NCBI GenBank assembly: GCA_035573895.1
Contig: DATLZR010000014.1
Coordinates: 1 to 39,034 of the forward strand
Length of the DNA stretch: 39,034 nucleotides
DNA from: Blastocatellia bacterium
GTDB taxonomy: Bacteria > Acidobacteriota > Blastocatellia > HR10
Direction of reading: 5' to 3'
The notes under the pieces were generated by a model. The model was not told the DNA's origin and ran no database searches. It saw nothing but the letters and a program-made list of their open reading frames with translations. Shown one piece after another: positions 5,078 to 28,180 of the stretch. A program made the translations under genes and the position numbers. Numbering within the stretch: position 1 is the first letter of the stretch; each line of letters begins with the position of its first letter.

Positions 5078-5985
5078 AGGTTCTCCACATCAGCTCGGGC
5101 CCTGGAGATGGCTTCATGGACCGAAAGGACCTCTCCATAGCTCGCCAGCACATCACGAATTTCCTCCTCGTTGCCGAAAATGCCCGGCTCAATCCCGAAC
5201 AAAGTGTGCTGGCGATAGGCTGCAAATTTGTTCAAGGCATTTCGCAGCGGTTCCAATTCCAGACCGTATTTGCTGTCTTCATAGTGAGCAACGAGCGCCT
5301 CTAGGAACACTGGATGCTTGACCGAAAGCCGGCTGTAAGCAATGAACTTCGGCGAAAGGTCTGTGAGCATCCGAGCCGTTCGCCCGCCGCCCCAAAGGAG
5401 ATTCAAGGCTTCGAAGAGCGTCTGGACGCGCCTTCTCCTTTCATTCGGGGGAAGTTGTTGGTCGTTTGACTGACCGGTTTCTAGCGCCCGAAAGGTGCCC
5501 ACCCGGTCGAGTTCTATTAGCATTGTTCCCTTGAAAAGGTTGGCGTAAAGTTCAGTCTCAAACATGTTTCCGCCAGCAGCCATTTCCTGTCCAAAGCGTT
5601 CAAAGGATCGCGTGCCGAGGTCGCGGTCACCCTGAAATGGAAATAGCCCCACGGCAGCCGAGACACGCACCGGCGAAGTGCGACGCCGCCCGCCCGATGG
5701 GTCTAAGTAACCGAAGAGATCCTCATCCACAAACTCGTGCGGGCGCACCGGTGGGGTGACTTCTTGCCCGCTCACTTGTGCAGATGGCTCGGAAAGTGAG
5801 TAACCCAACTCTTCCAGCCGATCCCGCAGCATCCGCCGGATGGCCTGCCCGGAGATGTAGGGAATAGTGCTGCCATCGGGCAGCGTGACTTTCTTTGCGA
5901 CGACGACGTTCCCTTCCGTGTGAGAAGCGTTCACATTCGCCGCCGAGACTTTCATAAGGTAGCCAATGGCAATTGCTCTGCTCAT
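5056..5985 (-). CDS. cas7: Cas7 (DevR/Cst2 family) Cascade backbone
   Basis: This 309-aa protein carries the DevR/Csa2/Cst2 hallmark N-terminus: IGYLMKVSAANVNASHTEGN, then a basic strand and ISGQAIRRMLRD. Cas7 forms the helical backbone that holds the crRNA spacer. Length and motifs fit the Tneap/I-B Cst2 group. It starts 3 bases after the cas8 stop. The last three Glu codons of cas8 (GAGGAGGAG) lie just before the TGA and serve as the Shine-Dalgarno sequence for this gene, so cas8 and cas7 translation should be coupled. Confidence 0.9.
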   Translation of the reverse strand: MSRAIAIGYLMKVSAANVNASHTEGNVVVAKKVTLPDGSTIPYISGQAIRRMLRDRLEELGYSLSEPSAQVSGQEVTPPVRPHEFVDEDLFGYLDPSGGRRRTSPVRVSAAVGLFPFQGDRDLGTRSFERFGQEMAAGGNMFETELYANLFKGTMLIELDRVGTFRALETGQSNDQQLPPNERRRRVQTLFEALNLLWGGGRTARMLTDLSPKFIAYSRLSVKHPVFLEALVAHYEDSKYGLELEPLRNALNKFAAYRQHTLFGIEPGIFGNEEEIRDVLASYGEVLSVHEAISRARADVENLWNESST

Positions 5986-5988
5986 AGA

Positions 5989-7500: not shown

Positions 7501-8998
7501 CGAATTCCCTCTTTCGTGGGGGATTTTCGCAAATGTATGTTCCCCTGCCAAGAAGTTTCCCCGGAAAGCCCATGAGCATCCTCATCGGGCTCAAACTCCG
7601 GTGGGTATTGTCAGCGAGCGCATCGGCGGACCTCAAAGCGTTTGTCACCCGAGAAGGCTCGACACATCTGAGGACCCGCCGCGCTTTAGAATCCATTTTC
7701 TTCGCCACAGCCCCAGCGGGGCGTTCGAGATGATATGCCTTTCGCGGCGCGTACGCGGCAATGAGAGTGCGATAGTAGGCTCCCGTTGGACTGACCTCCC
7801 CACGCAGGATGTTCCTGGCAGCCGCGGCGTCCGCCAAGCCAAGGAGTCGCGCCGGAGAGAGACGCTCATGCGCCGGCGCGTAATCCACATAAGCGAAGAA
7901 ATATTTGCTCCAGAAGAACGAGAGGAATTCAACCCCTTCCGCCGACGCCCAACGGACGATCGCTTCGATGAATTTCTGATCGAGCGGAGCCCAGAAGGAG
8001 AAGACGTCGCGGGCGAAGATCGGTCCAGGGGCGACGTTTCGCATCAGTTCCGGCGCCGACGCCTTATACAGCCACGCTTCGCCGATGATCACCGGCTTGC
8101 CTTGCGCGCGGACCAGGCGCACCATCTCGGCCGCCCGATTCAGAAGACCAAGCGTCGCCGGATAGACGTGGATGTCCACGTAAGTGAGCTCATCCATCTT
8201 CGCGAGGCGCTGGACGAACTCCACGGCCTCCCAATTCCCCGCCCCGGCTCCGACCCGAATGCCCGCGCGCACATCGGCGAGCCCATCGAGCACGAATCGC
8301 ACCAGGCGCATATACTCGTCCACATCCGCGAGCTGCCGCAATCCTGTGGCGCGCGCTTCCGTAGTCGGCTCATTGGCAATAGTCAGGTAATCGGGCTGCA
8401 GCTCGCGCGCGATGGTGCGAGCGATCTGGCGGCGCGCCTCGCGGTAACGCTCCATCGTCAATCCCGGGTGAGGGCCGACTCCGGTCGTCTCATCGGGGAT
8501 CAGGACGCCCGTGCCAACGAGAAGTCGCATCCCGCGCTGACGGACTTCGCGAACGATATCGCGATAAAATGCCAGATAGGCATCGCGATGAGGATCGTCC
8601 CCGGAGAGGATCGGATAACTGATTGCGACTTTCACGCCACGCACGCCCAGCGCCCGCAACGCGTCGAGATAGAGAGCTATCCCCGCGCGCGTGTCTGGCC
8701 GGAGCAGGGCCGGCCCGCGATGCGCGTTCGCCGGGAGAAGCTCGGCGCCGAAGATCGGCACGCTCGCCCGCACATCGGGCACGCGACGCGCGAAGGCCTC
8801 CAGGGCGCGCTCCAGTTGCCGGTAGAGGGATTGGTATCGAAGAGGCCCTTCCGCCCCCGGGCATCTCCCGAGCAAGAAGAGCAATGCCAAGGTGATCGCG
8901 CCGCCGCACACCGACGCACGCCGCCAGCGTCGCCCCAAGCTCCGGGCGATGGCCCACGACCGCTTGGTATTGAGACGATCGCTCAATGATGCCCGCAT
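7463..8998 (-). CDS. membrane-anchored or secreted clan-A-like glycoside hydrolase
   Basis: This protein of about 511 aa has an N-terminal hydrophobic segment (about residues 31-45) after a basic stretch, so it is probably exported. The body resembles TIM-barrel glycoside hydrolases of clan GH-A. YLTIANEP supplies the acid/base Glu210 and KPVIIGEAWL the nucleophile Glu307, at the ends of strands 4 and 7; VDIHVYP lies between. The substrate cannot be told. The start at 8998 is chosen because the residues before it are Arg/Gly-rich, unlike protein, and lie in sequence that codes for Cas6 in another frame. The last 80 or so residues look non-homologous and run into cas8. Its place between cas6 and cas8 is odd. 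Confidence 0.7.
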   Translation of the reverse strand: MRASLSDRLNTKRSWAIARSLGRRWRRASVCGGAITLALLFLLGRCPGAEGPLRYQSLYRQLERALEAFARRVPDVRASVPIFGAELLPANAHRGPALLRPDTRAGIALYLDALRALGVRGVKVAISYPILSGDDPHRDAYLAFYRDIVREVRQRGMRLLVGTGVLIPDETTGVGPHPGLTMERYREARRQIARTIARELQPDYLTIANEPTTEARATGLRQLADVDEYMRLVRFVLDGLADVRAGIRVGAGAGNWEAVEFVQRLAKMDELTYVDIHVYPATLGLLNRAAEMVRLVRAQGKPVIIGEAWLYKASAPELMRNVAPGPIFARDVFSFWAPLDQKFIEAIVRWASAEGVEFLSFFWSKYFFAYVDYAPAHERLSPARLLGLADAAAARNILRGEVSPTGAYYRTLIAAYAPRKAYHLERPAGAVAKKMDSKARRVLRCVEPSRVTNALRSADALADNTHRSLSPMRMLMGFPGKLLGRGTYICENPPRKREFDDTATVLDSAFL

Positions 8999-12818: not shown

Positions 12819-14474
12819 ATGATCCGAAGGTGGACCGTTGCGGCTATTCTCGCCGCCGTCTTTGGAGTCCCGTGCGGCCATGCTATGGCTAAACCTCCCG
12901 GCGGTGCCATTGCCGGCCTGGTCAAGGATGACGCGGGCAACCCTATCATCGGCGCCGTCGTGAAGGTCATTGATCCCACCTCCTTCAAAGAGCCCATCCG
13001 AACGCTCCGAACAGATGCTCAGGGACGATTTGTGGCCAGGAGTTTAACGCCCGGACAATACCGCCTGCGTGCCGAAGCTCGGGGGTTTATCTCCGTCGCC
13101 CATCCGATCGAGATCAAGCCCGATGTGACGCTCACCCTCACGTTTGAATTGAAGCGGCTGGGAACACTCGCTCAGGAGCGCGAGGATCGTGACGACTATC
13201 GCTGGCTCGTGCGCGCGTCGCGTCGTCACGTTCTGCGATTCAACAAAAACGGCGAGACGCCTCCCGATGATTTTCTCCGCACGATGGCTCGGGGGCGGTG
13301 GGTTCCATCTCACGGCATGATTCAATGGATCAGCGGCGCTTCCGGGAAATCGCGCACGCTGGCTTCGCTCGGAATGCTCAATTTTGTGGCCATCAGCGAG
13401 TTGACGCCCACGACCGAGCTTCTTTTTGTCGGGCAAGTTGCCGGAGCCGATTCTCCCGGCCGGTTTGAACTGATGTCCACGTCAGCTCTGGATGAAGCCC
13501 ATGCGCTGACCATCGCCGTTGGTATGGCGACGGTGCTACCGGAGACCGGTGGGGCGACCTCCGCTCCCACGAAGCTGCTCTCTTTACGGGTGGCCGATTC
13601 CTGGCGGGTGGCAGACCCGGTGGTCGTCGTCTACGGGGCGGATATCACGAAGGTCGTCGGACAGAAGGCGGCCATGGCCGTGCTGCCGCGTTTGGGCGTG
13701 CAGATGTCCCTGCCGGGCCGAAGCATGATGACCGCCGAATGGGTGCCGGTGCGCACGCAGGATGTTCACGCCCGCTATGATCACCACGGCCGCCAGGTGC
13801 TGCTCACCGAGCCGGAGACACCAGCCGTCGTCAACGGGCGTGTGATGGCGGATCGCACGCGCCGATTCCAGCTCCAGTGGGAGAAGGGGCTCGGTGAAAC
13901 GTCAACGCTCGAAGCGGCCTTCTTCCTCGATGATGTTGCCGGCCGCGGAAGCAGCATCATTGCCCGTCCTCGCTCCGCTTCTGAAATCATCCATCCGCTG
14001 GCCCTCAAGGGTCAGGCTCAGGGGCTGCGGGTGATGTATCGTCGTCGTCTGGGCGAAACGCTTCAAGCCACGATCGGCTATGCGGTGGGGCAGGGGCTGA
14101 AGCTTTCGCCGCGGGGGCTTGAGGATCCGGCGCAGGCCGTTACTACGGGACTGTTTCAGGTCTTCGCCGCCCAGCTCGATGCGCTCATCTCACCGACGCG
14201 CACGCGCATCTCAGCTCATTTTCGGGCGGCTTCCCGAGCGAGCCTCTTTGCCATTGATCCCTTCTACGCCCGGCTACCGATACTGGATCCGAGCCTCAGT
14301 CTGATGGTCACGCAAGAGCTTCCTCTGGTAGCGCTGCTGCCCGGTCACTGGGAGGCCGGTGTGGATGTGCGGAATCTGCTGGACCTTCCCGGTTATGCGA
14401 GTTCGGATCGAGGAGTTCTCTTGATCCATCGCCCCCAGCGCCTTGTGCGTGGCAGCGTGTCAGTGAGATTCTGA
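12819..14474 (+). CDS. secreted carboxypeptidase-regulatory-like domain protein, probable outer-membrane barrel
   Basis: This 551-aa protein has a signal peptide (cleavage near HAMA-KP), then a carboxypeptidase-regulatory-like beta-sandwich at about 28-110 (GAIAGLVKDDAGNPIIGAVV, DAQGRFVARSLTPGQYRLR). The rest lacks a TonB plug but contains alternating strands and ends in Phe (GSVSVRF), as outer-membrane beta-barrel proteins often do. It is followed after 39 bases by a sensor kinase gene on the same strand, so the two are probably one transcript and may be functionally linked. No enzyme motif is visible. The ATG is preceded by GGAAGGGGGAAC. Confidence 0.65.
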   Translation: MIRRWTVAAILAAVFGVPCGHAMAKPPGGAIAGLVKDDAGNPIIGAVVKVIDPTSFKEPIRTLRTDAQGRFVARSLTPGQYRLRAEARGFISVAHPIEIKPDVTLTLTFELKRLGTLAQEREDRDDYRWLVRASRRHVLRFNKNGETPPDDFLRTMARGRWVPSHGMIQWISGASGKSRTLASLGMLNFVAISELTPTTELLFVGQVAGADSPGRFELMSTSALDEAHALTIAVGMATVLPETGGATSAPTKLLSLRVADSWRVADPVVVVYGADITKVVGQKAAMAVLPRLGVQMSLPGRSMMTAEWVPVRTQDVHARYDHHGRQVLLTEPETPAVVNGRVMADRTRRFQLQWEKGLGETSTLEAAFFLDDVAGRGSSIIARPRSASEIIHPLALKGQAQGLRVMYRRRLGETLQATIGYAVGQGLKLSPRGLEDPAQAVTTGLFQVFAAQLDALISPTRTRISAHFRAASRASLFAIDPFYARLPILDPSLSLMVTQELPLVALLPGHWEAGVDVRNLLDLPGYASSDRGVLLIHRPQRLVRGSVSVRF

Positions 14475-14513: not shown

Positions 14514-17438
14514 ATGCGGCTGCGAACGTTGAGCGGACGAACGATCCTGCTTCTGGGGATTACGGCGGCGGCGGTGGTCGTCGGCGGGCTCAATCTCCAG
14601 GCCCGGCTGAGGAGTCCTCAGATTCCCTCCGATGGCGTGATCTGGGCGGATTCACCCGGGGGAGTGAAAGCGGAGATTGTTGATCCTTCGGGTCCGGCGG
14701 CTCGCGCCGGAGTGCGTCGGGGCGATCTACTGATCGGCATCAGCCTCGATGGAGGCCGCGATTTCGATGAGATCACCCGCGCCAGCGATGTTCAGATCTA
14801 TCTCGACACGGCGGGCGTGCACCATCCGGTGTCGTATCTGATCGAGCGGCGCAATGCCTACGGCGATGCGTCACGCTGGGCCGCCGATCTCACCGGACTG
14901 CAAGCGAAACCCCAGCGCCTGTGGCGTGGTCTTTATCTGGCCGCCATCGGATTGGTCTATCTCATCATCGGGCTCTACGTCCTCATTCGCCAGGGGCGGT
15001 CTCCCTACACGCGTCACTTCTACGTCATCTGCCTGGCCGCTTTCATCGTCCACTTCTACAGCTTCACGGAGCAGCTCGACCGTCTGGATTGGATTGTTTT
15101 CCTCGCCGACAACGCGGCGTTGACGTTGCTGGCTCCGCTCTTTCTCCACTTCGCCGCTCTCTTCCCGATCAAGCAGCAAATCGTCGAGAGCCGTCGTGTG
15201 GTCACCGCCGTGCTTTACATCCCGGCCATGATCATGCTGGGGCTGGAGGCTCTGCTGGTCATGCGCTGGCGTCCGACCGCCGACGTGGCGTTGCGTCTGC
15301 GCATGGGGCTCGATTCGGCGGAGGTCATCCAGTTCATCCTCTGCTTCCTCATCGGTGGAGCATTGCTCGTTCGCACCTTCACCCGAGCCGAGAGCCCGAT
15401 CCTGCGGCAGCAGATGAAATGGGTCGTCTGGGGATTGGGCGTGAGCATCGTTCCCTTCACCGCCTATCAGGTCTACTCCTACTTCATCAATCCCAACGCC
15501 TCGCCGGTAATCGAAGCGATCGCCGTCGGACCGCTCATTTTCATTCCGCTGTCGTTCGGCTACTCGATTGTGCGCTACCGCCTGATGGATGTGGACGTGA
15601 TCATGCGGCGCAGCGTCGTTCATGCTCTGGCGACGGCGTCGGTTCTCGCTCTCTATCTCGCGCTGTTGATCAAGGGAGCCGACATCGTGGATTGGGTTGT
15701 TCCCAATGCGCCGCTGTGGCTGGTCCAGGCGGTCACGGTCACGGGCATGCTCATCATCGCCATGCTCTTCGCCCCGGTGCGCAACTGGATGCAGCAGCAG
15801 ATGGATCGCCTTTTTTACGGTCCCCGCTACAGCGCCCGGGCCAGCCTCGGCCAGTTCATCCAGACCATTTCCGCCACCACCGCTCTCGACCCTCTGCTGT
15901 CGTCGGTTGCCGAACGGCTCGGCGAGATGGTGCCCGTGGGCAAGATCGTCATCTTCATTGAAGACGCGTCAGCCCCGGCGGGTTATCGGATCGCCTTCAG
16001 TTCCGAAGGGAGCGAACAACGGCCTCTTCCTCCCGGGTTCGCTGATGTGATTCGTACGGAGAGCGCTTCGCAGGGAGTGCTCTCGGTCGAGGTCACCCCC
16101 TGGTTGCCCGAATCCTTTCTCGCTCACTTCCGCGACCTTCACTACTTCGTCCCCTGCATCGTGCGGGATCGCATGGTGGCCATCATCGGATTGGGACGGA
16201 ACGCGGAGGCTCCATTACTCACGTCGGAAGAGATCGAGCTGCTGCGGGCGATTTCCGGCTATGTCGCCGTTGCCATCGAGAACAGCTTGCTCTATCAAGA
16301 ACAAGCCGCACGAGCGGCCGAACTGGCTGAACTGAAGGAATTCAACGAAAGCATCATCGAGTCCATCAACGTCGGGATCCTGGCCCTTACTCCCGAAGGG
16401 CGCATCACGACCTGCAACAGTGCTCTGGAAGAACTCCTCGGCCTGCCTCGCAGTCAGGCCATCGGCCAGCCGATTGATAGCGTCCTCGATCCGGAACTCG
16501 TGCGGGCTCTCCGTCAGATCGTGGGACATGAGGGGTGGGTGGTGGATGAGGCTCGAACTCTCTACAAGTTTCGCCTGGTACTCGGCGAGGATCGAGACCT
16601 CGTTCTCAACATCTCCCTCACTCCGTTTGTGACGCCTCAGGGGCAGAATGTCGGCTCGCTTCTGGTCCTGGAAGACCTCACCCACCGCGTGCGACTCGAA
16701 GAACAGTTGCAGCAGCGAGAAAAACTCTCCTCGATCGGGCTTCTCGCCGCGGGCGTCGCTCACGAAGTCAATACGCCGCTGGCCGGCATCGCCAGCTATA
16801 CGCAGATGCTGTTGCGACAGTTTCCTCCGAGCGATCCGCGTCGGGCACTGCTGGAGAAGATCCAGACGCAGGCCATGCGGGCTTCGAACATCGTCACCAA
16901 CCTCCTCAATTTCGCCCGCGTTGAACGGACGGACTTCGCCGAATTGGATCTCCATCAGGTTCTCGACGACACGCTCCAGCTCATTGAGCCACAGTTGCGC
17001 ACGAGTGGAATTGTCGTGGTGAAGGACTACGCTCCGGAACTGCCCGCGATTCTGGGGAATTTCACCAAGCTTCAGCAAGTCTTCATGAACCTCATCCTCA
17101 ATGCCCGCGACGCCATGCCCGATGGAGGACAGCTCACCTTGCGAACTGACGCTCGTGATGCAGTGGTGGAGGTGGAGGTCATAGATACCGGCGTCGGTAT
17201 TCCCCCGGAACATCTCTCCAAAATTTACGATCCCTTCTTCACCACCAAAGAGATCGGACGCGGAACGGGACTCGGTCTGGCGCTCACCTACGGGATCGTC
17301 CAGGAGCACGCCGGCCGTATCTCGGTCGAAAGCAAAGTGGGGTGTGGAACCCGGTTCACTCTCACGTTCCCGGCGGCTCGCGTCGCCCGCATTCCCTCTC
17401 GCCGCCGCGAGGAATACGCCACCGCGACCGGTGACTAA
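14514..17438 (+). CDS. membrane sensor histidine kinase with PDZ, GAF and PAS domains
   Basis: This 974-aa protein starts with a membrane anchor (about 10-27), then a PDZ-like domain (about 38-110, including DPSGPAARAGVRRGDLLIGI). A multi-helix membrane region follows (about 138-430), then a GAF-like domain (about 450-600) and a PAS domain (about 615-735). The HisKA domain carries the H-box HEVNTPLAG (His750). The HATPase has the N-box NLILNARDAMPDG, G1 DTGVGIP and G2 GTGLGLALTYGIV. It should autophosphorylate on His750 and pass phosphate to a response regulator. None is encoded nearby, so it is an orphan kinase here. The kinase core resembles NtrB/AtoS-type enzymes, whose partners are often sigma-54 activators. 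Confidence 0.9.
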   Translation: MRLRTLSGRTILLLGITAAAVVVGGLNLQARLRSPQIPSDGVIWADSPGGVKAEIVDPSGPAARAGVRRGDLLIGISLDGGRDFDEITRASDVQIYLDTAGVHHPVSYLIERRNAYGDASRWAADLTGLQAKPQRLWRGLYLAAIGLVYLIIGLYVLIRQGRSPYTRHFYVICLAAFIVHFYSFTEQLDRLDWIVFLADNAALTLLAPLFLHFAALFPIKQQIVESRRVVTAVLYIPAMIMLGLEALLVMRWRPTADVALRLRMGLDSAEVIQFILCFLIGGALLVRTFTRAESPILRQQMKWVVWGLGVSIVPFTAYQVYSYFINPNASPVIEAIAVGPLIFIPLSFGYSIVRYRLMDVDVIMRRSVVHALATASVLALYLALLIKGADIVDWVVPNAPLWLVQAVTVTGMLIIAMLFAPVRNWMQQQMDRLFYGPRYSARASLGQFIQTISATTALDPLLSSVAERLGEMVPVGKIVIFIEDASAPAGYRIAFSSEGSEQRPLPPGFADVIRTESASQGVLSVEVTPWLPESFLAHFRDLHYFVPCIVRDRMVAIIGLGRNAEAPLLTSEEIELLRAISGYVAVAIENSLLYQEQAARAAELAELKEFNESIIESINVGILALTPEGRITTCNSALEELLGLPRSQAIGQPIDSVLDPELVRALRQIVGHEGWVVDEARTLYKFRLVLGEDRDLVLNISLTPFVTPQGQNVGSLLVLEDLTHRVRLEEQLQQREKLSSIGLLAAGVAHEVNTPLAGIASYTQMLLRQFPPSDPRRALLEKIQTQAMRASNIVTNLLNFARVERTDFAELDLHQVLDDTLQLIEPQLRTSGIVVVKDYAPELPAILGNFTKLQQVFMNLILNARDAMPDGGQLTLRTDARDAVVEVEVIDTGVGIPPEHLSKIYDPFFTTKEIGRGTGLGLALTYGIVQEHAGRISVESKVGCGTRFTLTFPAARVARIPSRRREEYATATGD

Positions 17439-17860
17439 GGCTTCCTCGTGATTTCCAGCATTCGTTTCTGGCAGAACCCTCTCGGTTGCGGACATTGCTG
17501 TGCCCCCCGGAAGCTGCCGCCCGGAAGCCGACGCTCATCCCGAACGAAGGAAACGATCCCTTCGCATCGTCGGCCTGCGAGGTGGACTATTTGTTCACAG
17601 GAATCGCCCGTGTGCTCATGCCCGCCACGAGGAATGAAAATGCGTCTGCCAACGGATCAAAGGGGCCAACTGATGAGCGATCCGCTGGAACCTTTCATCC
17701 GTGGGGAGATCATTTTCAAGGGAGTTCCTCATGGAAGCCAAGCTTCCACCGGGAAACCATGAAAAATCTCACCGCAGAAGGACACGGATGGGCACGCCGT
17801 GAAGGGGACGATCCGCGTTAATCCGTGTCCATCTGTGGTGACTGTCGGAGGAGGATAGCG
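17439..17860. repeat. intergenic region with palindromic element at 17772-17838
   Basis: No gene is supported in these 422 bases. The main structure is an inverted repeat: the left arm at 17772-17789 (CCGCAGAAGGACACGGAT) pairs with the right arm at 17821-17838 (ATCCGTGTCCATCTGTGG), 16 of 18 positions matching. The right arm resembles that of the element at 35269-35331 (13 of 18 positions), so they may belong to one interspersed family. Confidence 0.5.
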
Positions 17861-19786
17861 ATGACACGATACATCTCGGTCACTCTCTTCATCGTGACGG
17901 TTTTGCTCATCGGGAGTTTTCCGAGGACCGGCGTCCTCGCGGTTGCTCGTGCAGCGGGCCAGATCCCGCCCATTGTTCTTGAGGTGGACGCCCGGGAAGC
18001 TCCGCGGAAGATTTTGCATGCGCGGCTGACGATTCCGGTCACACCGGGACCGTTGACCTTATACTATCCCAAATGGCTTCCGGGAGAACACGGACCGACC
18101 GGACCGATTCTCAATCTGGCGGGATTGAAACTGAGTGCCGGAGGTCAGACCATTTCCTGGCAGCGTGATCCGGTGGAGATGTACGCCTTTCACTGTCAGA
18201 TTCCCGCCGGAGCCCGCAGTCTCGAGGTGGCCCTTGATTTTCTTCTGCCCGTCGGTGGGGATGGATTCACCTCGGCCGCGTCCACGACGGCACAGCTTGC
18301 CGTCATCAACTGGAATCAGGTGCTGCTCTATCCCCAGGGGCGCCGAACCGATGACCTCCTCTACGCGGTGCGACTGCAGTTGCCTTCGGGCTGGCGCTAC
18401 GCAACGGCTCTTCGCAAAGCGAGAGAATCCGCCGGAGTGATCGAGTTCGAGCCGGTCTCGCTCACGATGCTGGTGGATTCGCCGCTTCTGGCTGGAGCCC
18501 ACATGCGCACGATCACGCTGACGACCGAGCCATCCCCGCCGACCTTCATCCATCTGGCGGCGGATAGCCCGGAGGCGCTGGAAATGAGTCCGAAGATGAT
18601 CGCGGATTTGAAGCAACTCGTCAGCGAAGCTGGCGCTCTCTTCGGAGCCTACCACCACACCGAATATCACTTTCTTCTCGCCCTGAGCGACCATGTCGCC
18701 CATTTCGGTCTGGAACATCATCAGTCGAGCGATAACCGCGTGCCGGAACGGACGCTTCTGGAGGACGCCCTTCGGAAAGTCCACATCGGCGTTCTCTCCC
18801 ACGAGTACGTGCACTCCTGGAACGGCAAATATCGCCGTCCGGCCGACCTCACGACGAGCGACTACGGTCAGCCGATGGTGGGCGATCTACTGTGGGTCTA
18901 CGAAGGGCTCACGCAATATCTGGGAGGCGTGCTGGCGGCGCGCAGCGGACTGTGGTCGCCGGAAGAGTATGAGCAGGCGCTGGCCGTAGCAGCGGCATCG
19001 CTCGATCACCGGCCGGGACGAAGCTGGCGGCCGCTGGCCGACACGACGCGAGCGGCTCAGATCCTCTACGGAGCACCGGCGGCATGGGATGCCTGGCGTC
19101 GCGGCGTGGATTTTTACGACGAGGGGTGGCTTCTCTGGCTGGAGGTTGACGCGATCATCCGCAGTGAAACCCGGGGCGCTCGGTCGCTTGATGATTTTTG
19201 CCGCCGCTTTCACGGAGGGACATCCGGCGGCCCCACGGTCAAACCGTACACCTTTGACGATCTTGTGGCGACGCTCGCCGAAGTCGCTCCCTACGACTGG
19301 CGCGGCTTTTTCACAACGCGGCTGGCTGCGACAACACCACGAGCGCCGCTTGGCGGCATCGAACGAAGCGGCTGGCGCCTGGTCTATCGGGAAACGCCTT
19401 CCGATTTCCAGCAGGCCCTCGAACAGGTCAGCCGAATCCTCGATCTCGCGTACTCGCTTGGCCTGCGCCTGCGCGATGACGGCCTCATTCTCGATGTGGT
19501 GCCGGAGACCGTCGCCGCTCGCGCCGGTCTCGGTCCGGGAATGCGGCTCGTCGCGGTGAATGGACGACGGTTCGCTCCCCACATTCTGCGAGCGGCCCTC
19601 CGGGCAGCCAGGACCAGTTCGGATCCCATCGAGCTGCTCGTCGAAAGCGAAGAGTTCTACAAGACCTATCGGCTCGCCTATCACGAGGGCGAACGGTATC
19701 CTCACCTGGAGCGCGACGCGTCGCGGCCCGATCTCCTCAGCCAAATCCTCAAACCGCGCCAGACCCGTATCGCCACCTCTCGATAA
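17861..19786 (+). CDS. M61-family (glycyl aminopeptidase-like) metallopeptidase with PDZ domain
   Basis: This 641-aa exported protein has a signal peptide (about 1-32) and an N-terminal beta domain. The zinc peptidase core has HEYVH (His314, Glu315, His318) and third ligand Glu348 in YEGLT. The motif HHQSSDNRVPE upstream is typical of M61 peptidases. A C-terminal PDZ-like domain follows (about 535-610, LILDVVPETVAARAGLGPGMR). Family members cleave peptides with N-terminal Gly or Ala; the substrate here is unknown. The ATG at 17861 has GGAGGA about 8 bases upstream; upstream codons in the frame fall within the palindromic element. It converges on the receptor gene and is separated from it by a strong hairpin. 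Confidence 0.85.
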   Translation: MTRYISVTLFIVTVLLIGSFPRTGVLAVARAAGQIPPIVLEVDAREAPRKILHARLTIPVTPGPLTLYYPKWLPGEHGPTGPILNLAGLKLSAGGQTISWQRDPVEMYAFHCQIPAGARSLEVALDFLLPVGGDGFTSAASTTAQLAVINWNQVLLYPQGRRTDDLLYAVRLQLPSGWRYATALRKARESAGVIEFEPVSLTMLVDSPLLAGAHMRTITLTTEPSPPTFIHLAADSPEALEMSPKMIADLKQLVSEAGALFGAYHHTEYHFLLALSDHVAHFGLEHHQSSDNRVPERTLLEDALRKVHIGVLSHEYVHSWNGKYRRPADLTTSDYGQPMVGDLLWVYEGLTQYLGGVLAARSGLWSPEEYEQALAVAAASLDHRPGRSWRPLADTTRAAQILYGAPAAWDAWRRGVDFYDEGWLLWLEVDAIIRSETRGARSLDDFCRRFHGGTSGGPTVKPYTFDDLVATLAEVAPYDWRGFFTTRLAATTPRAPLGGIERSGWRLVYRETPSDFQQALEQVSRILDLAYSLGLRLRDDGLILDVVPETVAARAGLGPGMRLVAVNGRRFAPHILRAALRAARTSSDPIELLVESEEFYKTYRLAYHEGERYPHLERDASRPDLLSQILKPRQTRIATSR

Positions 19787-19952: not shown

Positions 19953-22900
19953 TTACCAGTTAATGGCCAGGGTAAAGGTGATGACGCGCGATCCTCCGCT
20001 TTGACTGTTGATGCGAGCGAAGGTCGCGGAATCAAAGGTCAAACTGCCGATGGCGAAGTTGGTGTTGTTGAAGGCATTGATGAAGGCCGCCTTGAATTCC
20101 ACGTTGGCCTTCTCGGTGAAGTACGTGCGCTTGATGAGCGAAAGATCGGTCTGGAAGAAGCGCGGACCGTTAATGGACGCCCGCGGGAAGTTCCCAAACG
20201 TCCCCGGAGCAGGAGAGGCGAGGAGTCCTTCCTTGAGCGTCGCCGTTTGCAGACGACCGGCTGAATCCACCGTGATGTTAAGCAGCGCCGGATTGATGAA
20301 GAACACTCCCGAACCGGTGCGGAAGATGCCGAAGTTCTTCTTGAACTCCTCGAAGCTGATGCCGACCAGTTGAGCAGGGTTCAGTTCCGGATTGAAGTTG
20401 TTGAACGTGGAGCGGCCGGAGAAGACGGCAATCGGCGGCCGGGACTGCCAGTTGATGATGCTTCCCACGGACCACCCTTCGATGACCTTGCGGATGACTC
20501 CCGGTCCACCGGACCAGAAGCGACGGCCCGGTCCGACCGGCAGCTCATAGAGGAAGTTGGCGATGAACCGGTGCGTCTGATCGAATCCGGAGCGGTGGCG
20601 ATCCAGCCGAGGATTGCGCAGCGTGCGGAAGGATTCGAGCGTGCTCTGGCTGCCCTCGCTGTCGGTGATGGCCTTGCTGAAGGTGTAATTGGCCTGGAGG
20701 TAGAGTCCGCTCGACACCCGCCGCCGCAATTCGATCTGCAAGGAGTTGTAGTTGGAGAACGAGGCATTGGTCAGCAGCCGCGCGAAGGCGGCAAAGGGAT
20801 TGGCCACAAAGAAGTTGGGCGGCAACTTCGCTCGATTCGCCGCGTAGGTCGGGCTGAAAGCGAGCGTTTGCGCCATCGCTCCCACGTTGTTGTTGACAAG
20901 CGCCGTGATGAAGGTCGAGCTGGCAAAACCGACCGAGGCTGGCAGCCCGCTGAACAAGGTCGAGAGGATCGGCAGCGGAACCGTTCCCGGGGCCCCCGGA
21001 GCGAAGCTGCGTCCCCCGTTGATCTCCAGGTTCTTTTGCGCGTTGAGGAACTCCTGCAGGAAGCCGTTCTCGAAGATGTTGACCTCGTTATAGTCAATGG
21101 CGCGGAAGATCTTCACGGCGTGGTTGCCCACGTAGCGGATCTCCAGAGCGGTATTGCGCGCAATCTCCCGCTCGATGCCGAACGACCACTGCTGCACGTA
21201 GGGCGTTCGGAGGTTCGGATCGAACGTCCAGAGGCCGTTGTTGGGATTGACGGCGAAGTTCTCCGCATCGGTCACCGGCATCTTGAACGTGGGGGTCGGC
21301 AAAGGAACGCCCGCCGCTGTGAGCACGCCCGTCGGCGTCGTATTGGCCACCGTCTGAATCAAACCGGGATTGGTGGTTCCTACGCCCAGCGCGTTGCTCA
21401 CGACGGTGAACCCATCGCGGAGATAGCTGATCGAGAAGCCGGCGCGAATGGCGCTCTTCCCTTCACCGCCGAAGAGCCAGCGCAAGAGCCGGTTTTTCGG
21501 CTCCGGCGAGTAGGCGAATCCGATGAAGGGAGCGAAGTTGTTCGTATCGTTCTTGTAGAGAGGTCGTCCGGTCTTCCCGCTGACGAAGTCAATGATCGTC
21601 GGCGCTGATCCCTTGAGCACTCCGGGATTGAACAAATTGCCCGGTCCCGAAATGCCGAACAGGCCCGCCACCCCGCCGAGCGGTTGAATCGCCAGCCCGT
21701 TGGGGATTGTCGGCACGGCCAGGAATTCGTAGCGCACTCCGTAGTTGAGGGTAAAGTTGCGCACAATCCGCCATTGATCCTGGAAGTAAAAGCTCACTTC
21801 ACGCTGACGGAAGACGCGCTCGCGCGTGGCTCCGGGAACGAACCCCGACGTCGGACTGGTGACGTTGAACGTGCGTTGAGCCGAACCGAGCAGCCCCACC
21901 AAATCACGGTAGATCGGTCGGGCGCGATTGACAATCGCCGTTCCCGTAGCGCCGGCAGGGAGATTCGGGAAGGCGGTGTTCAAAATGCCGTCGGGATTAG
22001 CCGTGTTCGTCCCCAATGCGATCGTCGGGTGAATCCCCGCATCGTTGAAGGTCACCGCCGAAATGGAGACCGCTTCTGCTCCCATGCGGAACGTGTGCGT
22101 CTTCCTCACCCAGGAGAAGTTGTCCACGAACTGATAGACGAGCGTATTGCGCCCCTGGGACATGAACGTCAGCTCAGGTGTCGTGACCGAACCGAATGTC
22201 GTGAAAAACGGCTTATCCGGGGGAGCTTCGCGCAAAAATCCCACCGGCGCTCGCTGATGCCCGTAGCGAACCTCATTGGCAAACGACGTACCGAAGGTGG
22301 AATGGATGGCCGCCGCCGTCAGCCAGCGCGTGGACTCCTGAAAGGCATTGATACCCCCAGGGAATGGGGACTCCAACCCGTTGAACGTGTCGGGCGTCAG
22401 GATGAAGTGGGCGCGATGCAGCACCCACTCGAGCTTGTGCGATCCCCACCTGTCGAACAGCTTTTGGTCAATGCGCAAACTGATCTTGTCGTTGTTGTTG
22501 ACGCCCGCCACGTTGTAACGGAAACCGGCGGTATTGAGCCCATCTCCCACGAGCGTGTTGTTCGGCGCCGGCATTGCATTCAGCACCGCCGACGTGATCG
22601 GATTGAGCGTCTTCACATTCCCGATCTGGAGCAGATTGACGGATTGAAGCTGACCATTGGCTCCGATATAGCGGAAGATCCCCTGTCGTGCTTCCGGCGT
22701 GAGAACCGTTCGGTTCCGGGTGGCCGAGAAGGGCTCGCGGAATCCTTCGTAGGAGAAGAACCAGAAGCTCCGGTTCCGTCCGTCATAGATCTTGGGCAGA
22801 TAGACGGGACCGTTGGTGACGAACCCGAACCAGTTCTGGAGCTGGATCGGTCGTGGAGTCCCCGTCGCATTGTTGAAGAACGAGTTGGCATTGAGATTGT

Positions 22901-23660
22901 CGTTGCGATGCTGCCAGAAGACCTTCCCGTGGAACTCGTTGCCCCCCGAAGGCGTGACAATACGCACCTGAGCGACGCCACGACCCGCATCTGATCCCAC
23001 CGTTCCAATCGTCACGCTGAACTCATTGGTTGATTCCAGCGAGGGAGCCGTGATGGCAAAGAACGAGTCAGTCTTCACGAAATTGTCCATCGCATTGATG
23101 CCATCCTGGGTGACGTTGGTGGCCGTGCCCCGCAGCCCCCCGACGGAAGCACTGCGCGTGTCAGTGCCGATGACGGCAATGCCCGCTTGCAATCGAGCCA
23201 GCTCAATCGGATTACGGTTGGGCAGAGGAAGATCTCTCACCTGACGCGCATTGATGACATTGGTGAGCGTCGGGCTGACGGTGTTGATCACGGCTTGTGC
23301 CTCCCCAACCACCGTGACCTCTTCTGTGACAGCTCCAACCTCAAGGCTCACAGTGATCCGGGCCGGGATGGACACTTCGATGACCACGTCCTGGATTTCA
23401 GCTCGCTTGAACCCCTGAGCTTCTACGGAAACGGTATATCGGCCGATGGGGAGCGAAGGAAGGACAAATGCTCCCTGAGCATCGGTCGTGGCGCGAAACT
23501 GAGCCCCCGTGGCAATGTTTTTCACCGTCACAGAGGCGCCGGGAATGGCCGCGCCGACCGGGTCCGTCACGATCCCCGTTAAGCTTCCCGACGTCTGACC
23601 AAACACCGGTACACTGCTGAGCATCAAAAGCGTCAACAAAACAGCGATATGGTGTCTCAC
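19953..23660 (-). CDS. TonB-dependent receptor with carboxypeptidase-regulatory N-terminal domain (copy 1)
   Basis: This 1235-aa outer-membrane receptor has a signal peptide (1-21, ending VPVFG-Q) and a carboxypeptidase-regulatory-like domain (about 25-105, GSLTGIVTDPVGAAIPGASV). A plug domain follows (about 125-260, VNVTQ-DGINAMDN region), then a long beta-barrel ending in the aromatic C-terminus TFTLAINW. Such Oar-like proteins import large substrates with TonB energy; the ligand is unknown. I chose the GTG at 23660 because AAGGAGG lies just before it and the layout mirrors the second receptor (AAGGAGGGAAAC then (A/G)TGAGACA), which gives matching lengths. It has its own sigma-54-type promoter. 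Confidence 0.88.
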   Translation of the reverse strand: MRHHIAVLLTLLMLSSVPVFGQTSGSLTGIVTDPVGAAIPGASVTVKNIATGAQFRATTDAQGAFVLPSLPIGRYTVSVEAQGFKRAEIQDVVIEVSIPARITVSLEVGAVTEEVTVVGEAQAVINTVSPTLTNVINARQVRDLPLPNRNPIELARLQAGIAVIGTDTRSASVGGLRGTATNVTQDGINAMDNFVKTDSFFAITAPSLESTNEFSVTIGTVGSDAGRGVAQVRIVTPSGGNEFHGKVFWQHRNDNLNANSFFNNATGTPRPIQLQNWFGFVTNGPVYLPKIYDGRNRSFWFFSYEGFREPFSATRNRTVLTPEARQGIFRYIGANGQLQSVNLLQIGNVKTLNPITSAVLNAMPAPNNTLVGDGLNTAGFRYNVAGVNNNDKISLRIDQKLFDRWGSHKLEWVLHRAHFILTPDTFNGLESPFPGGINAFQESTRWLTAAAIHSTFGTSFANEVRYGHQRAPVGFLREAPPDKPFFTTFGSVTTPELTFMSQGRNTLVYQFVDNFSWVRKTHTFRMGAEAVSISAVTFNDAGIHPTIALGTNTANPDGILNTAFPNLPAGATGTAIVNRARPIYRDLVGLLGSAQRTFNVTSPTSGFVPGATRERVFRQREVSFYFQDQWRIVRNFTLNYGVRYEFLAVPTIPNGLAIQPLGGVAGLFGISGPGNLFNPGVLKGSAPTIIDFVSGKTGRPLYKNDTNNFAPFIGFAYSPEPKNRLLRWLFGGEGKSAIRAGFSISYLRDGFTVVSNALGVGTTNPGLIQTVANTTPTGVLTAAGVPLPTPTFKMPVTDAENFAVNPNNGLWTFDPNLRTPYVQQWSFGIEREIARNTALEIRYVGNHAVKIFRAIDYNEVNIFENGFLQEFLNAQKNLEINGGRSFAPGAPGTVPLPILSTLFSGLPASVGFASSTFITALVNNNVGAMAQTLAFSPTYAANRAKLPPNFFVANPFAAFARLLTNASFSNYNSLQIELRRRVSSGLYLQANYTFSKAITDSEGSQSTLESFRTLRNPRLDRHRSGFDQTHRFIANFLYELPVGPGRRFWSGGPGVIRKVIEGWSVGSIINWQSRPPIAVFSGRSTFNNFNPELNPAQLVGISFEEFKKNFGIFRTGSGVFFINPALLNITVDSAGRLQTATLKEGLLASPAPGTFGNFPRASINGPRFFQTDLSLIKRTYFTEKANVEFKAAFINAFNNTNFAIGSLTFDSATFARINSQSGGSRVITFTLAINW

Positions 23661-23735: not shown

Positions 23736-23750
23736 GCAAACGGTGTGCCA
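23736..23750 (-). promoter_or_regulatory. sigma-54 (-24/-12) promoter of receptor copy 1
   Basis: Read on the minus strand this is TGGCAC (complement at 23745-23750), 5 bases, TTGC (complement at 23736-23739), the canonical RpoN -24/-12 spacing. The expected start of transcription is near 23725, giving a leader of about 65 bases. Receptor copy 2 has the same signal at the matching position, which makes chance unlikely. Confidence 0.7.
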
Positions 23751-23827
23751 CATCGGTCCCCATAAGGTAACTTCCTGAGGCTCCAGCAATTACAGGGTTA
23801 CAAAAATTTGCAATGACAGGAGTCTTT

Positions 23828-23860
23828 CCATTTTTTCGGAAAGTCCATCCGAAATTTTGG
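23828..23860 (-). promoter_or_regulatory. palindromic upstream activator site of receptor copy 1
   Basis: CCATTTTTTCGGA (23828-23840), a 7-base spacer, and TCCGAAATTTTGG (23848-23860) form a near-palindrome. It begins 78 bases beyond the end of the -24 element (23750), the same offset as at receptor copy 2. The 36-base block 23826-23861 is identical to 27843-27878 except one base. Position near -120 fits an enhancer site for a sigma-54 activator. Confidence 0.65.
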
Positions 23861-23909
23861 ACGACTTGCGGGTTCACCCCGAACCCGGAGGGACTTTAAG
23901 AGGGGGAGA

Positions 23910-23954
23910 GACTCACGATGCCGGCGGCTCTTTGCAGAGGCGGCATCGTGAGTC
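23910..23954 (-). terminator. hairpin downstream of receptor copy 2
   Basis: GACTCACGATGCCG (23910-23923) and CGGCATCGTGAGTC (23941-23954) are a perfect 14-bp inverted repeat with a 17-base loop, 14 bases after the stop codon of receptor copy 2. There is no clear T-run, so it is a likely but not certain terminator. It separates the two receptor transcription units. Confidence 0.55.
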
Positions 23955-23968
23955 CTCCAGATCAGCTC

Positions 23969-26900
23969 TCACCAATTGAATCGCGCCGCCAGTTGGACGA
24001 TACGAGGATCGTAGGCTCCGTTGGTGCCGGAGATGCGACCGAAGTTTGTACTGTTGATGTTGGTCGTCGGTCCACCGAAGCTGACCGTGTTGAGGAGGTT
24101 GAAGAACTCGGCGCGGAATTGGAAGCTTGTCGTTTCAGTGATCCGGATGCTCTTGATCGCGTTGAAGTCGAGTCGCCAGAATCCCGGGACGCTCAACACG
24201 CCGAAGCCCAGCGAACCCAGTCGGCCCGCTGCAGGATTCCGGAAGATTTGCGTATTGGCGCGACCATCCGGGCCGATGAGGCTCGGGTCGAAGTAGAAAA
24301 CGCCGTTGCCGGTTCGCCGCACGCGCACGAGCCGGCGAAGATCCTCAACGGTCATGCCGACGAGGTCAACGGTATTGCTCCCCGAACGTCCCGCGCGGTT
24401 GAGCGTGCCACGACCGGAGACAAACGAGAGCGGTTGCCCGGTATAGGCGATCAGGATTCCTCCGATCTGCCAGCCGCCGAAGACCCGCCCCACCCAACTG
24501 CTCGTATTCAGGAAGCGCTTGCCGGGACCGAACGGAAGCTCGTAAACAAATGTGGCGTTGACCCGATGGCGAGTGTCGAAGCTGGCGCGGCTGTATTCGT
24601 AGCGGGGACTGCGCAGCGTCACGAAGGCGGAGAAATTCGAACCGGAGCCTTCAAAATCCGTCAGAGCGCGTCCGAACGTGTAGTTGACGTTGAACTGCAA
24701 TCCCGATGCCAATCGGCGCCGCAGCTCCACCTGAAGAGAATGGTAGTTGGAGCTCGAACCGTTGGTGATCACATCGGAGAAGGACGCCTCCGGGTTCACG
24801 ACGAAGAAGTTGATCGGCAACCCACCGCGCGGACCCGTGAGCGCATTGAGGAAGTTCGTGAAAAGTTGATTGGCGAACTCGCCGGCCTCGTTTTGATCGA
24901 GCAAGGTGATGAAGGTGGAATTGCTGTAGAGAGCGCCCGATGTCGCTCCGAAGATCGCCGCCAGGATCGGCAGGGGGACTTGACCGGGAAGCCCTTGATT
25001 GTCAAATCGAGCCCCTCGTCCCATCTGACGGCTGATGGCAAGGTTTTGTTGTGCGGCCAGGAATTCCTGGAGGAAGCCGTTCTCGAAGATGTTCGTTTCG
25101 TTCAAATCAATCCCGCGCCAGAGCTTCAGACCGCGATTGCCGACATAACTGACTTCCAGAGCCAGGTTGGGCGTGAGCTCGCGGGCGATACTGAGCGACC
25201 ACGTTTGCACATAGGGCGTGCGGAGGTTCTCGGCGAAACCGAAGATCCCGCTGCCTCGATTGTCACGGAAGTTATCCAGTTGAGGAATGGGCACGCGGAA
25301 AGTTGGAACAGCCGGGACGGGGAATCCATTGCGGAACGAGGTGAACTGCGCTCCTCCCCGAATTCCCTGATCTGCCGTCGTGAGGGAGATCGTCTTGATG
25401 AACCCCGCATTGCTTCCTAAAGCGTTCGTGATGACGCTGGCGCTCTCGAGCGAATAAGCGATGGAGTATCCACCGCGAATGGATCCTTTGCCGGCTCCGC
25501 CCAGGAGGATGCGAGTTAACCAGTTGCGCTTCTCCGGCGCCCAGGCAAAGCCGAACGTCGGCGAGAAGTTGTTGTAGTCCTCGTTGAAGAACTTCCGCCC
25601 GTTGGATGAGCCGGCGAGATCAAGCATCACCGGTGACCCCGCGAGCACGCCCGGACGAAACAGGTTGCCCTTGCCTGAAACTCCGAAGAAGGCCGCTTCC
25701 CCGCCGACGGGCTGGAGCGCCAGCCGATTCGCTTGATCCGGCACACTCATATACTCATAGCGAAGGCCATAATTGAGCGTGAGAGTCGGCCTCGCTCTCC
25801 ACGAATCGGAGAAGTAGAAACCGAGGTAATTCTGACGGATCTTGTTGAAGAAAAATTCTCCTTCAACGAACCCCACCTTGGGATCCTTCACGTTGAAGGT
25901 GCGGGTCGTGCTGGCGATCTGACCGATGAGGATCGAGTAGACGTTCTGCGCCAGGCTGCGCGTCGTCGCCGTGCTGCTGGGGAAGGCGCTGGCGGGCAGT
26001 GCCGACGGATTCGCTGTGCTGACGCCGAGGATCAACCGCAGAATCGTCCCCGTGGTGCTGGTCGTCTGGTTGGCTGTGATCGAACGAAAGTCGCCGCCAA
26101 ACCGAATCGTGTGTCGTCCTCGAATCCAGGAGAAGTTATCGAGCCACTGGAAGTTCCGCGTGTTGCGCCCGCTGGTGACGCTGATGAGCTGAGGATCAAC
26201 GATCGTGGGAAAGTCAATGAAGACCTCCCGCCCCGCCACCTGGAACCGGTCCGGCTCCGTCCCGAAGATCACCGGAGCCGTCTGGAAGCCGAATCGAGCC
26301 TCATTGACTTTATTCGCTCCGAAGGTCGAGCGCAGAGCAAAGGAACCCGTCCGCCGCCACGAATCCTGGAATCCTCCCTTCATCCCGGGGAAGATGGGCT
26401 CGAATCCATTGAGCGTATCATTATCCGTATCGAAGCGGACGATGTGCAGGATTCCCTCGACCGTATGAGTATTGTTCAACCGCCAATCAACCCGCCAGCT
26501 CGGCCGGATGATCCGGGTCTTTGTCGGCACATTCCAACGAAAGCCGCCCGTGACCAACCCGTCCCCGATCTGGAAGTTATTCGGCAACGGATACCTGTCG
26601 CTGAGGATCTTGGTCGTGAAGGGATCGGCACTAATACCTCCCGCCTGGAACAGATCCACCGTGCGAAGCTGCCCGTCAGTACCGATGTAGCGAAAGATTC
26701 CTCGTCGCGCCTCATCCGTGAGGACTGTCCGATTGCGCGTCACTTCGCTGGCCTGCGTGGTGATGTCAAGTGACGTCCAGAGGAAGACTTTGTCCTTGAT
26801 GATGGGGAAGCTCGCGCGCCCACCGAATTGGTTCCGAATGAGCTTCTCGCGAGGAGTCCCCGTCAGGTTGTTGAAGAAGCTATTGGCATTGAGCACGGTG

Positions 26901-27670
26901 TTGCGGTGGAACTCGAAGAGACTCCCATGAAACTCATTGGTGCCGCTCGGTGTGACCATGCGGATGAAGGCCGCTCCGCTACCGGTCGCCGAAGCATCGG
27001 TGGTACTCGTCGTGATGCTGAATTGCTCGACGTTCTCCACCGTCGGCGAGGAGATGATGAAAAAGCCATCACCGGATCGGAGAAAGTTGTCCTGCACGTT
27101 GATCCCATCTTGCGTGATGTTGATGACCGACTGACGCAGTCCGTTGATGCGTGAGGCCCGCTCTCCGCCCGACGTCGAAATCCCCGCAACGGTCGTGGCG
27201 ATGGTGATGGGATTACGCGCCACCAGTGGCAGATCGAGAATTCGCCGCCGGTCAACGACAGTGGTCAGCTCCTGGCTGCTTTTGTTGATGACCTCTTCAC
27301 CGGTGCTGGTGACGGTCACCTCTTCGACCACACCTCCCACTTCCAGCTTCACGGTCACCGTCGCATAGGTCGCCACATCAATCCGCACATTCTCCCGAAC
27401 GAACTTCTTAAATCCCGGGGCGTCCACCGTCAGCGTGTAGACCCCGACGGGCAGAACCGGGAAGATGTAGACACCCTGTTCATTGGTCTCGGTCGTCCAG
27501 GTCGCATTGGTCCCCACATTGCGCACCTCGACTTTGACGCCCGGCAGGTAAGCCCCCTGGGGGTCTTGCACTGTTCCATCCAGACGCCCTGTATTGGCTT
27601 GCCCCCGGACGGCAGTAACTGAGACCACGACCAAAAGCAAAGAAAGGAAAAGTCGCAGAGGATGTCTCAT
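23969..27670 (-). CDS. TonB-dependent receptor with carboxypeptidase-regulatory N-terminal domain (copy 2)
   Basis: This 1233-aa paralogue of the downstream receptor has the same order of parts: signal peptide (1-24, ending VRG-Q), carboxypeptidase-regulatory-like domain (about 27-107, GRLDGTVQDPQGAYLPGVKV), plug (about 130-265) and beta-barrel ending VQLAARFNW. Shared blocks such as NITQDGIN, NANSFFNN and ETNIFENGFLQEFL/EVNIFENGFLQEFL show a tandem duplication followed by divergence. The ATG at 27670 is preceded by AAGGAGG. It has its own sigma-54-type promoter and palindromic site, and ends before a hairpin, so it is probably a separate transcript under the same control as copy 1. The ligand is unknown. 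Confidence 0.9.
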   Translation of the reverse strand: MRHPLRLFLSLLLVVVSVTAVRGQANTGRLDGTVQDPQGAYLPGVKVEVRNVGTNATWTTETNEQGVYIFPVLPVGVYTLTVDAPGFKKFVRENVRIDVATYATVTVKLEVGGVVEEVTVTSTGEEVINKSSQELTTVVDRRRILDLPLVARNPITIATTVAGISTSGGERASRINGLRQSVINITQDGINVQDNFLRSGDGFFIISSPTVENVEQFSITTSTTDASATGSGAAFIRMVTPSGTNEFHGSLFEFHRNTVLNANSFFNNLTGTPREKLIRNQFGGRASFPIIKDKVFLWTSLDITTQASEVTRNRTVLTDEARRGIFRYIGTDGQLRTVDLFQAGGISADPFTTKILSDRYPLPNNFQIGDGLVTGGFRWNVPTKTRIIRPSWRVDWRLNNTHTVEGILHIVRFDTDNDTLNGFEPIFPGMKGGFQDSWRRTGSFALRSTFGANKVNEARFGFQTAPVIFGTEPDRFQVAGREVFIDFPTIVDPQLISVTSGRNTRNFQWLDNFSWIRGRHTIRFGGDFRSITANQTTSTTGTILRLILGVSTANPSALPASAFPSSTATTRSLAQNVYSILIGQIASTTRTFNVKDPKVGFVEGEFFFNKIRQNYLGFYFSDSWRARPTLTLNYGLRYEYMSVPDQANRLALQPVGGEAAFFGVSGKGNLFRPGVLAGSPVMLDLAGSSNGRKFFNEDYNNFSPTFGFAWAPEKRNWLTRILLGGAGKGSIRGGYSIAYSLESASVITNALGSNAGFIKTISLTTADQGIRGGAQFTSFRNGFPVPAVPTFRVPIPQLDNFRDNRGSGIFGFAENLRTPYVQTWSLSIARELTPNLALEVSYVGNRGLKLWRGIDLNETNIFENGFLQEFLAAQQNLAISRQMGRGARFDNQGLPGQVPLPILAAIFGATSGALYSNSTFITLLDQNEAGEFANQLFTNFLNALTGPRGGLPINFFVVNPEASFSDVITNGSSSNYHSLQVELRRRLASGLQFNVNYTFGRALTDFEGSGSNFSAFVTLRSPRYEYSRASFDTRHRVNATFVYELPFGPGKRFLNTSSWVGRVFGGWQIGGILIAYTGQPLSFVSGRGTLNRAGRSGSNTVDLVGMTVEDLRRLVRVRRTGNGVFYFDPSLIGPDGRANTQIFRNPAAGRLGSLGFGVLSVPGFWRLDFNAIKSIRITETTSFQFRAEFFNLLNTVSFGGPTTNINSTNFGRISGTNGAYDPRIVQLAARFNW

Positions 27671-27711
27671 TGGTTTCCCTCCTTAGTTTTGGTTGTCCCG
27701 CGTCAAAAGCA

Positions 27712-27741
27712 GCGGAAAGCACAATGCGCTGTACTTTCCGC
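27712..27741 (-). other. 5'-leader hairpin of receptor copy 2
   Basis: GCGGAAAG (27712-27719) and CTTTCCGC (27734-27741) form a perfect 8-bp stem, extended by inner AC/GT pairs. The predicted transcription start from the -12 element is about 27742, so the mRNA would begin with this stem. It may stabilise the transcript or affect initiation. Confidence 0.5.
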
Positions 27742-27752
27742 GACCAGTTTAT

Positions 27753-27767
27753 GCAAATCCCGTGCCA
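27753..27767 (-). promoter_or_regulatory. sigma-54 (-24/-12) promoter of receptor copy 2
   Basis: On the minus strand TTGGCACGGGATTTGCAT contains TGGCACG with TTGCA at the exact RpoN spacing (TGGCAC complement 27762-27767, TTGC complement 27753-27756). This is a full match to the -24/-12 consensus. The leader would be about 72 bases. A TTGACT/TAAACT pair overlaps it with a 16-base spacer, so sigma-70 use is not excluded. Confidence 0.75.
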
Positions 27768-27844
27768 AGTCAAGCCTAATAAAGCAAATTACTGATCTGC
27801 TTCTCGTTAAAAGAGCAAAGGTCAGATTCGCTCCGCCCGATCTT

Positions 27845-27877
27845 CCATTTTTTCGGAAAGTTCATCCGAAATTTTGG
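27845..27877 (-). promoter_or_regulatory. palindromic upstream activator site of receptor copy 2
   Basis: CCATTTTTTCGGA (27845-27857), spacer AAGTTCA, and TCCGAAATTTTGG (27865-27877) repeat the palindrome of receptor copy 1. Its near edge is offset 78 bases from the -24 element, exactly as in copy 1, while the sequence between differs. Conservation of sequence and spacing in otherwise diverged DNA points to a bound regulator. Confidence 0.65.
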
Positions 27878-27878
27878 A

Positions 27879-28180
27879 TGAGCATGCCGCAGGCAGCCGA
27901 TGGCGGCCCTGACAGGGGCACGTCTGAAGGGAGACGTTCCTCGTCGGAGCAGGTCGTACTGTCTCAGTTTACGAGCCGTCTCCCTGTGAGGGCTCTTGAG
28001 TCCGCATTGATTCGCGGGTGATCAAGGCGGTGCTCCTGATGACCCCGGCTATGTCGGATACCACTGAGCGGTAGTGGTAGAATGGCATCGGGAGGACTTC
28101 CGCAAGGAGCCACATTGTTTATTGCCAGCGCGCCCACACGTCGGGAGACGCGCCGGTGAAAAGGTGCTCCCAAAGATGCA
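27879..28180. other. intergenic stretch, no gene seen
   Basis: No supported coding frame is seen between the receptor control region and the next promoter. Two inverted repeats occur: GGGAGACG (27929-27936) with CGTCTCCC (27977-27984), and TACCACT (28059-28065) with AGTGGTA (28073-28079), the latter a compact 7-bp stem with a 7-base loop. Their role is unknown. Confidence 0.35.

Follow-up and report, generated by a model that had tools for sequence, protein, structure and literature searches.

Tandem TonB receptor genes of a Blastocatellia bacterium with predicted sigma-54 promoters, a recurrent double operator and a candidate NtrC-type controller

We suggest that two tandem TonB-dependent receptor genes in a 39,034-nucleotide stretch of Blastocatellia bacterium DNA (hereafter the window) have sigma-54 promoters which would be switched by an NtrC-type activator encoded on another contig (C104), with a histidine kinase encoded in the window acting upstream of it, and that both genes belong to a regulon dispersed over the genome. 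We give this reading a probability of about 0.83. It is the best explanation for the observed conservation, geometry, genome-wide distribution and gene linkage, from which we infer binding, phosphorylation and promoter use.

Promoters and operators of the receptor pair

Both genes lie on the minus strand, receptor 1 at 19953..23660 (1235 aa, GTG start) and receptor 2 at 23969..27670 (1233 aa). Their products each combine an N-terminal PF13620 domain (E=9e-21 and 9e-19, respectively) with a large outer-membrane beta-barrel, PF25183 (E=1.5e-137 and 3e-156), which is the make-up of CarboxypepD_reg (Oar-like) receptors. As the earlier note had claimed, both are preceded by TGGCAC-N5-TTGC, at 23736..23750 (TGGCACACCGTTTGC, minus strand) for receptor 1 and 27753..27767 (TGGCACGGGATTTGC, minus strand) for receptor 2, and the window contains no other exact match; the GG/GC spacing of 10 bases in YTGGCACRNNNNTTGCW is that of a sigma-54 -24/-12 promoter. 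Further upstream lie double-palindrome operators, predicted to be UASs, at 23826..23862 and 27843..27879 (both minus strand), which score 39.7 and 39.9 bits with our operator model R1, the latter being the highest value in the genome. At both receptors 75 bases separate this 37-mer from TGGCAC.

A 36-base block around the palindromes does differ at a single base between the two genes, as had been noticed before, and the shared arrangement is beyond chance. A 35-base operator pattern is present in exactly 2 copies in the window (0 expected from shuffles), and a search of the 3.9-Mb genome for a 25-base core at 3 mismatches or fewer gave exactly 2 places, both of them in the window. Because the flanking DNA has diverged (27/75 identical bases between operator and -24 element, a divergence also claimed earlier, and 20/100 in the 100 bases upstream) and the receptor proteins are 43% identical, the operator stands out as a conserved island. 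It is exceedingly improbable that the block was instead left behind by a recent tandem duplication or by gene conversion, and not kept by selection: the two genes are indeed tandem paralogues with one difference over the 36 bases, but flanks at or near random identity and the distance between the proteins speak against such an origin, and the occurrence of the same operator before unlinked receptors in ten genomes refutes it in the main.

The conserved block, which had been described as a 13-7-13 palindrome, is real, but an alignment of relatives favours reading it as a pair of 16-bp palindromes, TTCC-N8-GGAA, with starts 21 bp apart (consensus TTCCrAAwTTTyGGAw-N5-TTCCGAAAAwwTGGAA). In both halves TCC and GGA do not vary among the first 13 sites, and they hardly vary among 43. 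In other members, such as the operator on contig C27, one half repeats the other in direct orientation, so that each 16-mer, rather than a long inverted repeat, is probably the site of one dimer; since 21 bp correspond to two turns of DNA, two bound dimers would share one face of the helix. The paired dyads are located at about -102 to -138, which fits the usual description of a UAS (80-150 bp upstream, often paired, on one face).

A dispersed regulon with phased spacings

A strict operator search returned the window's two sites alone, and the regulon emerged only under a relaxed model (R1), built from operator sequence without any promoter information. When 150 of 1451 first-look candidates in the window's genome were scored with R1, at least 12 places were found, and further weak sites may exist. 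Eleven are convincing and accompanied by a sigma-54 element; the twelfth (C21) is weak and lacks one. The eleven precede nine CarboxypepD_reg TonB receptor genes (C14 with two, C27, C42, C44, C62, C73, C96 and C152), out of roughly 50 such receptors in this genome, as well as a PII gene (C80) and a gene for a CHRD-domain protein (C176). Co-regulation of the window pair, proposed previously, is thus supported by recurrence of the operator before other receptors, while a regulon of two genes proves too small. One of the best operators precedes a receptor gene (L152, G000:C42, ~4667-7882, minus strand) that an in-frame TAG splits into 341 and 730 codons, either a pseudogene or a sequencing error.

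Sites matching R1 were present in 10/10 genomes of the order. After removal of duplicates, the loci fetched across the order held 50 sites, 49 of them with a promoter-like element, and the targets of these 49 are 41 CarboxypepD_reg receptors (called by inspection of the N-terminus, including L135 and L140), the kinase-activator operon discussed below (5), one PII gene, one CHRD gene and one unclear case (G009:C45). An element that scores >=12 out of a possible 14.5 and lies 60-102 bases downstream accompanies 47/50 sites, compared to 1.2% of random positions in the same loci, and one scoring >=13.5 accompanies 37/50, compared to 0.45%; chance hits become about twice as frequent when the better side of each site is chosen, which leaves the conclusion unaffected. 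Palindromes alone cannot separate an activator from a repressor, and exact TGGCAC-N5-TTGC matches are merely about twofold more frequent genome-wide than in the control (24 vs 11), as would be expected if the operator served a repressor or an unrelated regulator and the promoter matches were incidental. We nevertheless regard this as very improbable, given that 47 of the 50 sites have the element on one side at phased distances and that even promoter positions left out of the scoring agree with the sigma-54 consensus (a purine after TGGCAC in 49/49, A/T after TTGC in 41/49).

Two further sigma-54 elements of the genome have other surroundings. One (L019, G000:C144:6968-6982) has a different pair of dyads upstream, TGTCCGAAAAATCAGACA and TGTCCGACAGATCGGACA, likely the site of another activator; the other (L025, G000:C179:33383-33397) has a GTTACACACCAGTGTGTAAC palindrome upstream and precedes an outer-membrane-efflux-like gene, and its contig also carries two genes for enhancer-binding proteins (EBPs).

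Gaps between operator and promoter fall into classes near 64, 75, 87 and 98 bp (ranges 62-66, 72-78, 85-91 and 97-100). Such clustering was reached by 0/5000 uniform nulls for all 49 gaps and by 2/5000 with one gap per orthologue group, with the reservation that promoters of paralogues are only partly independent of one another; the period that fits best is 11.8, not 10.5, and within this genome alone periodicity was not significant (698/5000). Orthologues of receptor 2 in G001-G004 (79-81% identical) retain the same kind of operator upstream, with a gap of 63-65 bases compared to 75 here, or about one helical turn shorter. The equal spacing emphasized in the earlier note therefore holds for the window pair, as one of several allowed distances, but not as a strict rule, and spacings across the order are apparently phased rather than fixed.

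Candidate activator and sensor kinase

An rpoN gene was looked for and found (PF04552, C73:103545-104018, E=3.5e-58), together with 17 clear EBPs and one weaker; with the recurrence of the operator before sigma-54 elements, this lends support to the RpoN control proposed at the outset. The candidate activator (C104:72-1484) has the domains of an NtrC-type protein, namely a receiver (PF00072), a sigma-54 interaction AAA+ domain (PF00158) with the GAFTGA motif, and a Fis-type helix-turn-helix (HTH_8, PF02954). Its orthologue is the sole EBP gene encoded in any site-bearing locus. In five genomes of one genus (G001-G005) the kinase-activator operon has an operator immediately upstream, where the -24/-12 elements are weak (CGGAAY). 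The order in G003 is CarboxypepD_reg protein, operator and promoter, kinase, activator, SbcD-like and SbcC-like genes (named by inspection), a second operator and promoter, and the receptor 2 orthologue; G002 has the same arrangement from the CarboxypepD_reg gene to the activator.

The kinase directly before the activator in G001-G005 is 66-68% identical, over its full length, to a 974-aa histidine kinase encoded in the window (14514..17438, plus strand) with PDZ-like, GAF, PAS, HisKA and HATPase_c domains (Pfam) and membrane segments recognized by inspection, making the latter the probable cognate sensor. Before it lies a gene for a 551-aa CarboxypepD_reg protein (12819..14474, plus strand; PF13620), whose homologues, 32-42% identical, precede kinase and activator in eight other genomes of the order (including G002 and G003) and in two others of the class (G011 and G013), so that the trio appears to be a conserved operon; its predicted structure had a mean pLDDT of 34, too low for use. 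Other Acidobacteriota, more distantly, have a related kinase ahead of a related activator. In the genome from which the window comes, the two are on different contigs and an M61 peptidase gene follows the kinase, and hence they are either separated or the assembly is broken; the 71 bases at the head of C104 shared no 12-mer with the window and hence gave no overlap with the kinase region. Their partnership in this genome is probable, judging by linkage elsewhere. The idea of a single activator encoded outside the window remains likely, with C104 as its location, and we add that its probable sensor is encoded inside.

The gene of the M61 peptidase, which has a PDZ-like domain (17825-19786, plus strand), separates the kinase gene from the receptor genes that converge on it. 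The left end of the window is possibly a type I CRISPR-Cas operon, with a Cas3 helicase-nuclease gene at 2124-4397 (minus strand; HD, DEAD and Cas3 C-terminal domains) and more minus-strand frames up to ~9858.

We consider it unlikely, though worth weighing, that the sigma-54 promoters and the enhancer are real while another of the 17 EBPs binds there, the C104 protein lying near a site by chance in one genus. The operator is order-specific and the protein class-wide, and no operator was seen in the 71 bp assembled upstream of the activator in its own genome, both as this alternative would have it. However, none of this genome's EBP loci (3 kb each) contains a site, site-bearing loci encode no other EBP, and five genomes have the operator before the kinase-activator operon itself. 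Under the preferred reading, with C104 as the activator, the membrane kinase of the window would phosphorylate the activator, two dimers of which would occupy the two 16-bp palindromes; the phosphorylated protein would then assemble, loop to RNA polymerase-sigma-54 and open the promoter. The same switch would serve the dispersed regulon, mainly CarboxypepD_reg receptors, and in one genus would also drive the kinase-activator operon, amounting to autoregulation. The signal might, as a guess, be an envelope or nutrient-limitation cue. The PII-family target (L148, G000:C80, 2961-3525; operator-promoter gap 87 bases) adjoins a phosphate-permease-like gene, which suggests a nutrient link.

Distribution and relation to known systems

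The activator is found in 56/58 genomes of the class with a nearly identical recognition helix. A class-wide search did not find the operator outside the order, where the hits were for the most part 21-bp tandem repeats or single matches that lacked sigma-54 elements; one TTCC-N8-GGAA pair (G016, L213) is a possible exception. Tandem 21-bp TTCC-N8-GGAA repeats, likewise without sigma-54 elements, occur in another family of the class (L222-L226 in G047, G060, G044, G073 and G080). Before 30 receptors of three other class genomes a strong sigma-54 element was absent. As the activator is class-wide and the operator confined to the order, either receptors were recruited, recently, in this order or the operator has diverged elsewhere. 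A more specific scenario, which we offer only tentatively and think doubtful, is that an ancient Acidobacteriota kinase-activator pair, encoded together with an outer-membrane-like CarboxypepD_reg protein, became the master switch of scattered TonB receptors in one order through spread of the double operator; the CarboxypepD_reg partner would take part in envelope sensing, and the activator would control the operon that encodes it.

TonB receptors under FecIR-type control are governed by ECF sigma and anti-sigma factors; the present system shares with these the envelope control of receptor genes, with sigma-54 and a two-component activator instead. The proposed mechanism is standard NtrC-type sigma-54 activation. 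Promoters of the NtrC/glnA type have two tandem dyads ~90-140 bp upstream of the start, a -24/-12 element and a REC-AAA+-HTH activator with a histidine kinase (PMC7408454, PMC7175178), all of which have counterparts here, whereas the TTCC-N8-GGAA sites with their 21-bp repeat and the TonB receptor targets differ. The C104 protein falls below the NCBIfam cut-offs for NtrC (417.5 vs 558.6) and AtoC (467.7 vs 714). AtoS/AtoC gave the top NCBIfam scores for both activator and kinase, but at 467.7 against 714 and 297 against 646, respectively, the two are not members, and no acetoacetate genes were seen among the regulon targets.

Sigma-54 has been described as a controller of the bacterial exterior whose genes tend toward transport and envelope functions (Francke et al. 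2011, PMC3162934), a theme that the present regulon shares; that article does not mention TonB or Acidobacteria, and a 2025 survey (PMC12316311) mentions TonB itself alone, in Flavobacteriia, unconfirmed. Our search of the literature found nothing relevant on TonB receptors controlled by sigma-54 in Acidobacteria, and the regulon, its operator and the probable two-component controller appear to be new. Each genome of Acidobacteriota and their relatives encodes dozens of CarboxypepD_reg TonB receptors, whose switching is undescribed in the literature searched. The regulon adds a clear sigma-54 case for nutrient receptors, together with a large set of promoters for comparison, and since a precise operator, a promoter and candidates for both activator and sensor are now specified, receptor switching becomes directly testable.
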